From a virus, in IMG/VR virus record IMGVR_UViG_3300028388_002041, positions 1 through 33,239 of that record: a DNA stretch of 33,239 bases; one strand, given 5' to 3'. How positions within the stretch are numbered: the stretch's first letter is position 1; each line of letters starts with the position of its first letter. Positions 4,965-26,453 of this stretch are shown here, in pieces. The notes below the pieces were generated by a model. That model made no database searches. It worked only from the letters and a program-made list of their open reading frames with translations, and was not told the origin of the DNA. Both the position numbers and the translations under genes were made by a program.

Positions 4965-6671
4965 CTAAGCTTCACATGATGAGCAATATAGATCATTAAT
5001 TTGTAACTTCTTACGTGCCTTTTCCTGAGCTTGATTTAACGAATGTTGATAATAAAATGTTTTAACACCACTTTCCCATCCTGTAATAAGAAGTTTATTT
5101 ACTTCTTTCACCGGCATAGATGGTGGTATCATCAAGTTTAAGGATTGTGCTTGGTCAATATATTGTTGACGAACCGCAGCTTGATTTACAACTGACATTT
5201 GTGAAATCTCAGCAAATGTTTTAAACACTTCCTTTTCATGTTCAGTTAAAAACTCTAAGTGTTGAACAGACCCGTCATATTTCTTAATAGAGCTCCAAAC
5301 TTCTTTTTTATCTTCACCCTTTTCTTGTAGTAATTTAACCAACATTGGGTTTTTAATTGTTACTTTAAGTTTTGCCAAATCTTTCACATAACAATTAGAC
5401 CAAATAGGTTCAATAGATTGTGAAACCTGACCTAATATAAACGCAGATGACACCGTAGGTGCAATTGCATTTAATGTTACATTTCTACGACCATAACCTT
5501 TAAGTAAAGATGGTTCGCCAAACTTATCCGCCATATCCTTAGATGCGTTATGTGATTTTTCATGAATCAACTTAAAAACATCACGATTAAGATTTGCGGC
5601 TTCAACCGATTCAAATGGTATCATTTTTGATTGTAACAGTGAGTGCCAACCTAATACTCCTAATCCTAATGCTCGTTGGTTTTTTGCAAAGTTATACGCC
5701 TTTTCCATATACATAAAGGTTCTTTTCCCTTCAATGGTACCATCATCACGTCTTTCTTCTAACTTAGTTAAAAATTCAGTTACAACAGTATCTAAGAATT
5801 TAACCATCGTTTCAACAGCATCCGTATCTTTCCACTCATCATAACGCAATAAGTTCATAGAACTTAACACACAAACGAAAGATTCTTCTTCGTTAGAACT
5901 AAGTGCTATTTCGCTACATAGATTTGATGCAACAATTTTTTTACCTTTGTCTTGATAAACATCGGGTGATTCATTATTCATATTATCACTAAACATAACA
6001 TATGGATAACCAATTTCCCCTCTTCTTTGAAGAACTTTCGCCCATATTTTTTGCTTATCTTTATCACCATCGATCATATCTTCCATAAACTCATCAGTGA
6101 CTGTGACTGCATGAGTTAAATCTTGGATAGGAAACCCTTCTGTTCCAATTTTCAAGAACTCTTCAATATCAGGATGTTCAATAGGTAGATATGGTGAAAA
6201 ACGACCCCTACGAGTGTTTCCTTGTGAAATATTATCAACAACAGACTCGAATAGATTCATAAAATGAACCGCACCTGGCGCTTTTCCGTTATCAGTTACA
6301 TCCGCACCTCGTTCTCTAAGATTGCCAAAATAACCTGACGTTCCACCACCCATTTTACTCATTTCACCAACTTCTGCTTGTGTGAATAATATAGATTCTA
6401 TGTTGTCTTCAACACTTGAACCAAAACAAGACACTGGAAGTCCTCGTTTTTTACCATAATTTGCCCACACTGGTGATGATAAAGAATACCACCCATGAGA
6501 CATATACTCATAAAACTTATCAGCAAAACCTTCTTCACCCAAAAGTTCTTCCGCGTGATCCGCAATCGTTCTAATTCGTTCTTTTGCGGTTTCACCTTCA
6601 CTTAAATAACCTCTTTCCAAAAAAGTTACAGTATCGGGCGTTATCCACCCAAAATCATCTAATACGTTCAT
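4965..6671 (-). CDS. nrdA: Ribonucleotide reductase class I large (catalytic) subunit, lacking the ATP-cone
   Basis: This catalytic alpha subunit reduces ribonucleoside diphosphates to deoxyribonucleotides for phage DNA synthesis. Key residues are visible: C82 and C267 (the redox pair matching E. coli C225/C462), the N250-L-C252-S-E254 active-site motif holding the thiyl cysteine, the phosphate-binding APTVSSAF segment, the Y540-Y541 pair of the radical path, and the C-terminal shuttle pair C563-S-S-C566. At 568 residues it is much shorter than E. coli NrdA (761). The missing part includes the N-terminal ATP-cone: the protein opens almost directly with the ten-stranded barrel region. That domain is instead on the neighbouring NrdB. 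It starts 28 bases after the nrdB stop, so the two are co-transcribed. Confidence 0.96.
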   Translation of the reverse strand: MNVLDDFGWITPDTVTFLERGYLSEGETAKERIRTIADHAEELLGEEGFADKFYEYMSHGWYSLSSPVWANYGKKRGLPVSCFGSSVEDNIESILFTQAEVGEMSKMGGGTSGYFGNLRERGADVTDNGKAPGAVHFMNLFESVVDNISQGNTRRGRFSPYLPIEHPDIEEFLKIGTEGFPIQDLTHAVTVTDEFMEDMIDGDKDKQKIWAKVLQRRGEIGYPYVMFSDNMNNESPDVYQDKGKKIVASNLCSEIALSSNEEESFVCVLSSMNLLRYDEWKDTDAVETMVKFLDTVVTEFLTKLEERRDDGTIEGKRTFMYMEKAYNFAKNQRALGLGVLGWHSLLQSKMIPFESVEAANLNRDVFKLIHEKSHNASKDMADKFGEPSLLKGYGRRNVTLNAIAPTVSSAFILGQVSQSIEPIWSNCYVKDLAKLKVTIKNPMLVKLLQEKGEDKKEVWSSIKKYDGSVQHLEFLTEHEKEVFKTFAEISQMSVVNQAAVRQQYIDQAQSLNLMIPPSMPVKEVNKLLITGWESGVKTFYYQHSLNQAQEKARKKLQINDLYCSSCEA

Positions 6672-6699: not shown

Positions 6700-7953
6700 T
6701 TAAAATAAATCTTCAGCTTCAACTGATTTTTGTCTTTTAGTATAGTTAATACTTCTTTTATAAAAGAAATCTGTATGTTTAGTGGTCATAACTTCATCAT
6801 CAAACCATTCGGTTTTTTCTAATAAAGAACTATCAGTTTCAAATACTGAATCAATACCAATTTCATTTAATGACCGATTAAATCTATCTTTAATAAACTC
6901 AATGGTTTCTTGTTTAGTTAGAAAGTCCAAATCACCTTCTTCAAACATCCAATCGACAATACCCTTTTCGGCTTCGTATGCTTCAATAGTTGCTTGTTTA
7001 ACGTCTTCCACAACTTGTTCTGTCCACCACTCAGGATTTTCTCTTTTAATGGTATTAACCAAATCAAAACCAAAATCCGCATGTATCTGCTCTTCTTTTG
7101 AAGTCGCTTCAACTGCGTTGGACATACCTTTTAACTGATTCTTATGTTTGTTGAATGACATGATAACCAAGAATTGACTAAATAAAGATACGTTTTCAAC
7201 AAACATAGAAAATAAAATGACCGACTCAAAATAATCTTTATTATCTAAAGCAGATGAATTAGCGATAGATTTTTCTAAATATTTTATTCTTCTACGTATT
7301 GCTGGAACTTCCATTAATGTTTCAAATTCATCACTTAAACCTAATATTTTAAGTAAATTAGAATAGGCATCATGATGTCTAACCTCAGACTCCGCAAATG
7401 TTGCACCAACAGAACCAATTTCAGGTTTTGGCATCTTATCATAAATTTTACCCCAAAATGTTTTTACCGCAACTTCAATTTGTGAAATGGCCAACATTGC
7501 CCGTTTAACCGCAGTTTTTTCAGCTTTAGTCATACCAACATTAAAATCTTGAATATCAGAAGTATAATTAAATTCATCATGAATCCAATATGAATGTCGA
7601 ATAGAGTTAACATATTCTTCCAACTCAGGATACTCGTATGGTTTTAAGTTTGTTCTTTTTACGAAAATATTTGGTCTTCTTTTATCCCTGTATAGTATGT
7701 ATGATTTAGCAACATCATTTAAATTATGGTTCATTAACTCATTTTCAACCATATCATGTATTTCATCCACTTTTGGTATAACACCATTGTCTGAATGATA
7801 TAAATCTAACTCAATTTTGGTGGCGATTTTTTGTGCTATAGTTTCGTCAGTACTGTCTACTGATTTCATCGCTTTTAAAACTGCCACTTTAATTTTATCA
7901 GAATTAAATAAAGCTTCTTCTCCGTTTTTCTTAATAACCTTATGTTCGTTCAT
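6700..7953 (-). CDS. nrdB: Ribonucleotide reductase class I radical-generating subunit with N-terminal ATP-cone
   Basis: The protein (417 aa) has two parts. Residues 1 to about 93 are an ATP-cone: VIKKNGEEALFNSDKIKVAV at the start and a later NDVAKSYILYRDKRR, as in NrdR and NrdA N-termini. Residues from about 120 on form the ferritin-like beta-subunit with metal ligands E160, E190-x-x-H193, E253 and E288-x-x-H291. Y197 sits seven residues after E190, as E. coli Y122 does after E115, so a radical tyrosine may be present. An ATP-cone on NrdB rather than NrdA is known from L. blandensis, where dATP induces inactive tetramers of NrdB. The same arrangement, with the matching absence in NrdA, is directly visible here. 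It lies 14 bases after the helicase gene. Confidence 0.96.
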   Translation of the reverse strand: MNEHKVIKKNGEEALFNSDKIKVAVLKAMKSVDSTDETIAQKIATKIELDLYHSDNGVIPKVDEIHDMVENELMNHNLNDVAKSYILYRDKRRPNIFVKRTNLKPYEYPELEEYVNSIRHSYWIHDEFNYTSDIQDFNVGMTKAEKTAVKRAMLAISQIEVAVKTFWGKIYDKMPKPEIGSVGATFAESEVRHHDAYSNLLKILGLSDEFETLMEVPAIRRRIKYLEKSIANSSALDNKDYFESVILFSMFVENVSLFSQFLVIMSFNKHKNQLKGMSNAVEATSKEEQIHADFGFDLVNTIKRENPEWWTEQVVEDVKQATIEAYEAEKGIVDWMFEEGDLDFLTKQETIEFIKDRFNRSLNEIGIDSVFETDSSLLEKTEWFDDEVMTTKHTDFFYKRSINYTKRQKSVEAEDLF

Positions 7954-16700: not shown

Positions 16701-17881
16701 CGTTTATATCGATACCATATTGACCCCCATCTTAATATTTGTACCGTTTTAGTTTCTTTTATCGTATTTAGATTAAAACCTGTATAGTATTTAGTACCTT
16801 CAATATTATCATTTAGGTTTGTCAAATCTAAAGAATTAAGAAAAACAAACGCTCTTGTTTTATACAAATCTGTCGAATTTTCTGGTATGACACTATCATC
16901 ATTAAATAACCGGTGGTTTAAAACATTAATATCACCAAATACTGTTTTTATTATCGTGTTTGGTGTATCACTAGTAAAATCATAATCACTTTTAGTATAA
17001 ATTTGGCCATCACCCCTTAGTTCAACATTATCAGATACGGGTTTATTTTCGTTAAATGGATATATAACACGATTAAATTTTTTATTTACATAAACATCTC
17101 CAATTTTTTTATTTATTTTACTTAAATCCTCATCGGCAGATAAAATGTTATCTAACATTGTTATACCTCCGCTTTCAATTAAAATCTTCTCAATAGAATT
17201 TGAAATGTTTGTATTTGTAAACGCAAATTCTTTAGCACCTTCAATTCTATTAAAATCTTTTCTTAAAAAATTTTGATTTTCTAATAAAGTATTTAGAGTA
17301 ATATTATTTCTTTTAAGTAATTCTTTATTAGATGTTAGAAACTCCATCATTTCAATAAAATTATCGGCATCTTTTTTTCCTAACGATGAAATCAATTGGT
17401 CAGATTCAGTCGGTAAATCAACAGTAGATGCTATATATAAAGCTCTATTATAAATTTTATATAAAATATCAATATATGTTCTTTCTGAAAAATTATTCTG
17501 TAAATCATTATTATCAATAGGTAATAGTGGTTTTAAGTTTAATGGTAATATTTGTGCTTCATTTGTTCTTTCAGAATTCTCTTTTAAATATGAATTAACA
17601 TAGTCTCGAACTAATTTAACCTCCGGCCATATTGTTGTATTAAGACCTTTTGTTTGTAACCGAATATCCATATCCGCAGGATATGTTTCTTCAACCTGAC
17701 CGTCTTTATTGTTTCTTTTATACACAGCAGGGAACGGATACGCCTGATCGTCCACCTCAATACCTGATTCATCATTAAGGTTTAAAGATTTCAGTCTTAT
17801 TTTTTTTTGTGATTCAGTCCATTTATCTCTTAATTCAACCCGTTGTTTTTGTCCTACAAAAGTGCCAGGGCGCAATCCCAA
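13781..17881 (-). CDS. Baseplate hub / tail lysozyme fusion with C-terminal GH19 domain
   Basis: A 1366-residue virion protein. About 1187 to 1366 form a glycoside hydrolase 19 (chitinase/lysozyme) domain: LAHFLGQTDKESGGF with catalytic-type E1199, a NLNF segment, LVYANRGGNGD, then YRERGYIQLFGKNNQ with the second acid near residue 1268. This would cut peptidoglycan as the tail penetrates. About 1000 to 1130 (RTYTCKIRMMGNTMIQP, IPIFSGTYLILSVNHD) looks like a hub-type beta fold, so it may join T4 gp27 and gp5 roles in one chain; the first 900 residues are unrecognised. The start is a TTG inside the end of the 468-aa gene (28-base overlap, -1 frame). No ATG occurs before residue 71, and an in-frame stop lies 12 codons upstream of the TTG. 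Confidence 0.85.
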   Translation of the reverse strand: MGLRPGTFVGQKQRVELRDKWTESQKKIRLKSLNLNDESGIEVDDQAYPFPAVYKRNNKDGQVEETYPADMDIRLQTKGLNTTIWPEVKLVRDYVNSYLKENSERTNEAQILPLNLKPLLPIDNNDLQNNFSERTYIDILYKIYNRALYIASTVDLPTESDQLISSLGKKDADNFIEMMEFLTSNKELLKRNNITLNTLLENQNFLRKDFNRIEGAKEFAFTNTNISNSIEKILIESGGITMLDNILSADEDLSKINKKIGDVYVNKKFNRVIYPFNENKPVSDNVELRGDGQIYTKSDYDFTSDTPNTIIKTVFGDINVLNHRLFNDDSVIPENSTDLYKTRAFVFLNSLDLTNLNDNIEGTKYYTGFNLNTIKETKTVQILRWGSIWYRYKRFIDDGVDILSPFFSNLTSTSDIYNGDEFTLSGVTAPVVINVLDNTYDFKYNQLTQETIDVGFYPHIIIDVYNKLTNQNLSINNVQQLYDEGIIELEYLGFNDVDDGNDKIKTNLWNVKLKINDGYVRLPTYHKPKKNETTLTQVINNSFVIDENSYYDIDYSILTQSPSSQVKYTDYFIKSNDKSINGGDISDLLGVFDVETLDYFESLFIKFASGPGIGTTYKFTNFYKKYINKSVNDISNIKNLIKVVRYVKNNPYDVHPQTMYILNRGGRSDSGFFDENDVDENQLERDIELIWGIHKNDEKAFSLAKSFYRDFDIKYNSNTFKYYRGIVRRWISYFENNEETDDNLILNYLSQLSIYTDNIIERANAFVTGLFIAVNRDLSFKPKIEEETTPSQISNVEIEKKIYRSLKVINDTWTNAWDFKQISMTSLFQYVDQINRPIGDKFYVDLESLTWYYNERNREELSIGQFITGFLNRNNLSEPISLGGNVNFYSENTVTLDDQSDEDLIDDSRVIANRIFGLHNEVKKNGSPKFIIYQRSHQSEILNLNVKKFANKTDGFSLSIPNNPIANVKLDGNRSIGFYVDFGIQNQGIFKDFTISSYDGVRTQEELVILENIANQKNSSKSSSFGTGLLDILKSRTYTCKIRMMGNTMIQPFMYFDLRYIPIFSGTYLILSVNHDTTSDNGLMTEFEGVRVSKYGTSSASEYLAKSKYNLLDGLIKSINNRRKKRSVAGSNTPESTTSNIEPITITPNIVKLPKLNDEGQFEFGEDDEQLEAVQILSERYEINTPLRLAHFLGQTDKESGGFKSTVVNLNFTTVNRLKEVFPSAFGDEDDSFISGFTRNPEALANLVYANRGGNGDVDTGDGWKYRERGYIQLFGKNNQREFSEFMTLNGYSNENIFENPDLIAEKYPLESAGWFWKKNGLNEMADKGSGIEVTKQITKKVRGITNTFEERHELFEKYYELINNA

Positions 17882-25559: not shown

Positions 25560-25576
25560 GTCATAAGACATATTTA

Positions 25577-25795
25577 CTATTTTGATTTTTCAGATAACTC
25601 AATAAGTTTATTTATAAAATACTTACGTTCATAGACAGGCATCTTCATCACATCACTATAGTTGATGTTTAATGATTTAGTTAAATAGAATATTTCTTCT
25701 AATAATAAAGTTTTATACTCCGTAGAAAGGACGAAAAAACTCTGAGTTAAATTCAAACGTATCGTTGATTTTTTTTCCCGAAGGTAGAAAAACTT
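25577..25795 (-). CDS. Second frame of tail assembly chaperone, likely reached by +1 (or -2) frameshift
   Basis: The 180-base gap between the chaperone stop (25713) and the tape measure is not empty. A frame shifted +1 relative to the chaperone is open from 25795 to a TAG at 25577 (72 codons). The part after the chaperone stop has clear protein character: EYKTLLLEEIFYLTKSLNIN followed by MKMPVYERKYFINKLIELSE. This resembles the short second-frame proteins upstream of tape measures ('EI.yL......d...mp..ER..f...l'). It has no ATG before the last 23 codons and no ribosome-binding site. Overlap with the upstream frame includes an A8 run (25769-25776) and a U6-C run (25734-25739 on the plus strand as A6), both able to slip +1. 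The product would add about 50 residues to the chaperone C-terminus, as in lambda G/GT. Confidence 0.65.
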   Translation of the reverse strand, partial: KFFYLREKKSTIRLNLTQSFFVLSTEYKTLLLEEIFYLTKSLNINYSDVMKMPVYERKYFINKLIELSEKSK

Positions 25796-26453
25796 CTATC
25801 TTTGTATTAATACCTGGAGTATTTTCTTTTACATATCGCCTAAACTCTTGAGAATCGTATATTGGTAAGTATTGTATCTCACGATTAACTGTCATCCTAT
25901 CATCAACACCATCAATACTTACTATCATATATTCTAACTGTTTTGTAACATAGGGTTTTACGGCTAAATTTTCATATTCTTCTTCAACACGTTGAACTGA
26001 TTGAATTTCTTCAACGGTCATAAATTTAAATTCTATTTTTTTACCTGATTTAGGCATCGTATATTCAAAATACCCGTTTTTATTTTTTTCAAGATTAAAT
26101 GATTTATATTCTATATTCTCTAAATCATATTCAACTTCCACATCATTACCAGTATCAGGGTCTTTCACAGTTAAAGTAATATTAGAACCGTATGCAGTAT
26201 TTCTCAAAAATAATAAAATAGCCCTTTTATCTTCATCGTGAAGTTGGTTAACTGTAATATCTCTATCTAATATTTTATGTTTTAATAACTCATCAATTAT
26301 ATTACCATTTTTTAATAAATTAGGTGAAGATAATATATTTTCATCTGCAGCGGTTAAATATGCCACCTTTATTTTATCTTTACCAGATTCATAAAATATA
26401 CCTTTGGTTGGTAAAGGTATTACATCAAAAGGTACTAATGTTTCGTTTTCCAT
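25713..26453 (-). CDS. Tail/baseplate assembly chaperone, gp26-like
   Basis: Resembles the T4 gp26-type family found upstream of tape measures in T4-like phages. The opening VPFDVIPLPTKGIFYESGKD is the typical 'lPSkG.fY' start; a helical middle (EILKHKILDRD-type segment, then LHDEDKRAILLFLRNTAYGS) and a beta part precede a second helical segment with VEEIQSVQRVEEEYENLAV. I start it at the ATG at 26453 (246 aa). The frame could begin at 26480, but those nine codons directly abut the T run of a terminator and read as noise. It is followed by an overlapping second frame, which supports a chaperone role. A strictly structural role cannot be excluded. Confidence 0.8.
   Translation of the reverse strand: MENETLVPFDVIPLPTKGIFYESGKDKIKVAYLTAADENILSSPNLLKNGNIIDELLKHKILDRDITVNQLHDEDKRAILLFLRNTAYGSNITLTVKDPDTGNDVEVEYDLENIEYKSFNLEKNKNGYFEYTMPKSGKKIEFKFMTVEEIQSVQRVEEEYENLAVKPYVTKQLEYMIVSIDGVDDRMTVNREIQYLPIYDSQEFRRYVKENTPGINTKIEVFLPSGKKINDTFEFNSEFFRPFYGV

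Follow-up and report, generated by a model that had tools for sequence, protein, structure and literature searches.

The window analysed here is a stretch of 33,239 nucleotides of viral DNA (IMG/VR record IMGVR_UViG_3300028388_002041). Its minus strand carries a gene for a gp26-like, probable chaperone, designated G, which is flanked by a tail tube-like gene on one side and by the gene in tape-measure position on the other and is followed by a second, overlapping frame, designated T (Table 1). The order sheath, tube, G, T and tape measure is that of lambda-type pairs, and a place between tube and tape measure also follows from the annotated gene order in Flavobacterium phage immuto, Microcystis phage Mel-JY01 and Listeria phage LIS04. 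G matches the family PF12322 (T4_baseplate, gp26) at 9.6e-9 with 35.7 bits, which passes the curated cut-off of 24.5, and phrog_150 ('baseplate hub') at 2.1e-9. The structure of G alone is predicted by AlphaFold with a pLDDT of 88.7, and its fold is matched by predicted T4-like baseplate hub proteins. A fold search of the PDB with the predicted G gave no significant match among solved structures; the match to the HK97 chaperone 2ob9 is weak (E 4.1, TM 0.35 by target length).

Table 1. Features at the G/T locus of the window
Feature	Coordinates	Strand	Basis
G, gp26-like chaperone, zero-frame product, 255 aa	25713..26480	minus	PF12322, phrog_150, AlphaFold
Shift site GAG_UUU_UUU_CGU; proposed slip from UUU 25739-25737 to UUU 25738-25736	25731..25742	minus	Conserved in 138 distinct relatives
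T, domain read in the +1 frame, 52 aa from the proposed slip to the stop codon; would form the end of GT (300 aa)	25577..25735	minus	
Gene in tape-measure position, 636 aa	23622..25532	minus	Position only; no family match
Tail tube-like gene, 162 aa	26538..27026	minus	Position and gene order in annotated relatives; gene itself without search

The zero frame of G terminates at a TAA codon (25715-25713, minus strand). The +1 frame of G is open for 72 codons (25795-25580), runs past this stop and closes at a TAG (25579-25577, minus strand), so that the hidden frame of the original prediction is real and its coordinates were correct to within one base. The -1 frame, which had been described as closed, indeed meets a stop 14 nt after the stop of G in the window. 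The second frame had also been taken for a real protein, and this is borne out by the region past the G stop: over 510 sequence pairs, the proposed frame has a dN/dS of 0.066, against values above 1.5 for each of the other two. Judged from these substitutions, T is under strong purifying selection. The T of the window scores 36.3 bits against a profile that was built without it and beats all of 1000 shuffles, and the search of phage sequences with T, which had been recommended, returned a tblastn match to T in Mel-JY01.

The +1 frame at the end of G is also present in immuto, Streptococcus phage GXN1, Listeria phage LIS04, Bacillus phage SP-15, the uncultured huge phage LR756508 and an IMG/VR contig (L001) that is the closest relative of the window among the matches listed, with 44% identity in G. 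Two scans of viral contigs added at least 160 further loci among the matches listed. The loci were picked by similarity to two queries and represent an uneven sample of phages. Among the 171 loci in which the G stop is complete, the T motif is confined to the +1 frame, with an overlap across that stop, in 160 and is found in both alternative frames in two; the +1 arrangement is therefore beyond chance. These counts take in two entries that duplicate others and one locus that matches the motif by chance (L171), and they do not credit GXN1, LIS04, SP-15 and three loci cut by contig ends, which carry T and miss the simple counting motif. The site statistics rest on 138 distinct loci (among the matches listed) grouped into 79 clusters. 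Across all 138, the alignment that the original prediction called for finds both frames and the slip site conserved. A sequencing error as the cause of the overlap is rejected, because the same arrangement is found in 79 clusters. In immuto (L003, 4691-5008), the annotation does not recognize the T frame and has a hypothetical gene of 36 aa over part of the region.

The end of G contains near-invariant DNA, which reads TTT-[T/C]TT-TGG-CCT in frame 0. In the window, the codons of the slip stretch on the minus strand are GAG (25742-25740), UUU (25739-25737), UUU (25736-25734) and CGU (25733-25731). The UUU-UUU-C that had been put forward as a candidate slip site is thus present, but it spans 25739-25733, one base away from the position first given. 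The first codon of the site is TTT in 134 of the 138 loci, CTT in three and TTC in one, and the base 3' of the slip codon is T or C in all 138. Where this codon specifies Phe it is TTT in 76 of 77 clusters and TTC in the remaining one; elsewhere in the same genes, Phe codons are 76% TTT and 24% TTC. The codon 5' of the site, rich in C and G, ends in T in none of the 79 clusters, with 37 expected from usage. The codon tests treat the clusters as independent and their probabilities are consequently overstated. Neither protein explains the constraint on the site, because synonymous codons are equal for the zero frame and the bases in question precede the shift.

The location of the shift is further delimited by stop codons of the +1 frame. 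In 60 of the 138 loci the slip codon is preceded by such a stop at a distance of at most 20 nt, and 31 of these 60 lack any ATG, GTG or TTG as far as 12 codons beyond the slip codon. The distance is 2 nt or less in 16 of the 138 loci. One of these is L001, with the site GTA_GAG_UUU_UUU_CGC and its TAG in the +1 frame. Stops directly 5' of the site place the shift at UUU_UUU_C and therefore exclude the A8 run, the other candidate site. That run is located at 25769-25776, exactly where it had been reported, but it is not conserved; it is missing in L001, where +1-frame stops separate its place from T. Since UUU_Y also occurs in frame elsewhere in 69 of 78 G genes, the tetranucleotide alone is not sufficient and something further is needed, for which the biased preceding codon is a candidate. 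The +1 sites show no strong downstream RNA structure (folding z -0.8), and no general upstream Shine-Dalgarno element was found in the +1 group, where an SD-like stretch is present in only 25 of 79 clusters.

We interpret the gene as encoding the G member of a G/GT pair of tail chaperones, in which GT is produced by a +1 slip at UUU_U, and assign to this reading a probability of about 0.83. The comparison lends strong support to the programmed shift into the +1 frame that had been proposed, by which a T-like domain is joined to a probable tape-measure chaperone. Most ribosomes would reach the TAA and release G, whereas a minority would slip one base forward at UUU_U to give GT, so that the T domain would be made only as a fusion. 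During the slip, tRNA-Phe would move from UUU to UUU, or to UUC in the relatives with UUU_C. The occurrence, the +1 direction and the rate of the slip are inferred, as is the chaperone function, without protein, ribosome, binding or virion data.

The functional assignment is modelled on phage lambda, whose gpG/gpGT pair arises from a -1 slip. The present locus resembles the tail-chaperone frameshifts of lambda and of other dsDNA phages in its place before the tape measure, in its overlapping frames, in a T that lacks a start of its own and in a slip site that is conserved close to where G ends. It differs from lambda in the proposed +1 slip at UUU_Y and in belonging to the PF12322 (gp26) family, and homology of T to lambda T is not shown. 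By analogy, the role of G would be to coat the tape-measure protein and that of T to recruit the tube subunits, and the virion would retain neither of them. A pair of tape-measure chaperones is the best functional reading by virtue of position, paired products and the lambda precedent, although no binding or virion data back it.

The original prediction had left open whether the ribosome moves by +1 or by -2, and both remain workable. A +1 slip re-pairs the first codon without mismatch in 137 of the 138 loci (134 with UUU_Y and three with CUU_U); the exception is GXN1, with UUC_UUU_C, where +1 fits on the second codon. A -1 slip re-pairs the first codon in none of them. The same fusion, with one extra residue, would result if the tRNA on the second codon moved back two bases, as in phage Mu, the known -2 case (PMC5009743). 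This movement re-pairs without mismatch in 133 of the 138 loci and would also explain why T is fixed at the third position of the first codon. It is mismatched, however, in the four loci with CTA as well as in GXN1, which are compatible with +1, and first-position wobble would be needed in 30 more loci. In addition, -2 slips are rare, and UUU_Y is known as a +1 site: in bacteria, UUU_Ynn is described as a sequence on which +1 shifts occur with particular ease (PMC5009743), and the PA-X protein of influenza is made by a +1 slip at UCC_UUU_CGU under the influence of the preceding codon (PMC3498833). The +1 slip thus fits slightly better; a -2 slip is unlikely, without being excluded. With the bacterial UUU_Ynn sites and influenza A PA-X, the present site would have in common a tRNA-Phe slip on UUU_Y and an influence of the preceding codon (PMC5009743, PMC3498833), and PA-X also shares UUU_CGU with the site of the window. 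Those genes are unrelated to the present one, a phage morphogenesis gene in which the site has been conserved.

Two other explanations dispense with ribosomal slippage. Since T overlaps the stop of G, which favors coupled re-initiation, T could be translated from its own start after the G stop, and the annotators of Mel-JY01 did place a start in the overlap. The window itself offers a TTG at 25756-25754; the claim that the early part of the +1 frame lacks a usable start was in this respect incorrect, but the TTG is not conserved. No start position for T is conserved among the 138 loci, the commonest being a TTG at codon -4 (43 loci), and 19 have no start codon at all up to 30 codons past the site. 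An independent start would also leave the conserved TTT_Y site unexplained, which makes re-initiation very improbable. The other explanation is slippage of the RNA polymerase on the T-run, which would put the shift into the transcript. Seven consecutive T are present at 96 of the 138 sites, yet 35 sites have no T-run longer than three, and this origin can hardly be entertained.

Some related phages carry T in the -1 frame instead. In cyanophages, G ends in AGT, TCT or GGT followed by TTT_TTC in 80 of 80 distinct loci; the heptamer is of the canonical -1 type, U_UUU_UUC, and the T domain lies in the -1 frame. A comparison of the cyanophage T with that of the +1 clade by hhalign gave a probability of 82% (E 1.1e-5). 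The annotation of Synechococcus phage Bellamy treats T as a gene of its own ('baseplate hub assembly'), whose ATG lies 14 nt past the start of the G stop. This ATG is present in 76 of the 80 cyanophage loci, and initiation of T on its own is therefore possible there too. KVP40 and the huge phage LR756511 have the cyanophage heptamer with T in the -1 frame. In LR756511 (L006, 4685-4810), which reads GGT_TTT_TTC, the -1 frame is open for about 75 nt up to a T domain with its own ATG. The base before the T-run is T in all 80 cyanophage loci and in none of the 138 of the +1 group. On the tree of G, the shift directions are strongly clustered, with 2 changes versus 8.1 in shuffles; LR756511 may represent a second switch of direction, but its branch is long. 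The RNA 3' of the cyanophage heptamer (L171, L193-L272) folds somewhat better than shuffles (mean z -1.6), and this fold is a possible -1 stimulator.

PF12322 has two copies in T4, gp26 (208 aa, 8.8e-64) and gp51 (249 aa, 3.9e-52), and one copy each in KVP40, Bellamy, GXN1, LIS04, SP-15 and RM378; the model misses Mel-JY01 and immuto. The C-terminus of gp51 matches the cyanophage T profile (hhalign probability 94%, E 1.3e-7); compared directly with T of the +1 clade, it gives no significant match (hhalign probability 0.5%). As gp51 resembles the cyanophage T and the latter resembles T of the +1 clade, a duplication is supported step by step and not proven. From these resemblances, T4 probably makes G as gp26 and GT as gp51, a G with a T-like C-terminus, by gene duplication. 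T4 would thus differ in having two genes and no frameshift, with gp26 as G and gp51 as an in-frame G-T. A published precedent is Bacillus phage 0305phi8-36, in which a G/GT relation arose by duplication without frameshift (PMC2147016); the likeness is that of a two-gene tail chaperone, and no sequence comparison with the present family was made. A review describes gp26 and gp51 as hub assembly chaperones, with gp51 needed for assembly and absent from the particle, and also cites work that places gp26 in the hub (PMC3004832). A 2016 review considers the tail-chaperone frameshift widely conserved 'except T4' and lists +1 and -2 examples in other phages (PMC5009743).

Taken together, we lean, with clear reservations, towards a broader reading in which the whole T4-type G family shifts on one T-rich stretch at its end and the preceding base sets the direction: +1 with a base other than T before UUU_Y, and -1 with U_UUU_UUC in cyanophages, KVP40 and the huge phage. 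Duplication would have replaced the shift in T4, which would then be no exception, and the 'hub' proteins gp26 and gp51 would be tape-measure chaperones. The recurrence across T4-type phages, the -1 site of cyanophages and the resemblance of gp51 to an in-frame G-T fusion were not seen in the original prediction. Neither this frameshift nor the identification of gp26 and gp51 as G and GT was found in the open-access literature, subscription papers and preprints being outside the scope of the search. If true, a G/GT shift extends across T4-type phages, +1 and -1 at the same place, the T4 exception ends, and the G-T fusion in gp51 gives gp26 and gp51 a testable role. The loci also provide a natural collection of +1 sites of the UUU_Y type, whose strong preference in the preceding codon has no explanation so far, and they call for corrections of annotation, as T is missed in immuto and called a separate gene in cyanophages.

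Two further observations concern other parts of the window. On the minus strand, a gene of 1366 aa with a TTG start overlaps the upstream gene of 468 aa by 28 nt in another frame (17854-17881). Inspection of this overlap revealed no obvious slip site; the C-terminus of the 1366-aa product appears lysozyme-like by eye. Also on the minus strand, in the regions 6700-7953 and 4965-6671, an NrdB-like protein has an NrdA-like neighbor of 568 aa. Inspected by eye only, an ATP-cone-like stretch is apparently absent from the NrdA-like protein and apparently present at the N-terminus of the NrdB-like one.
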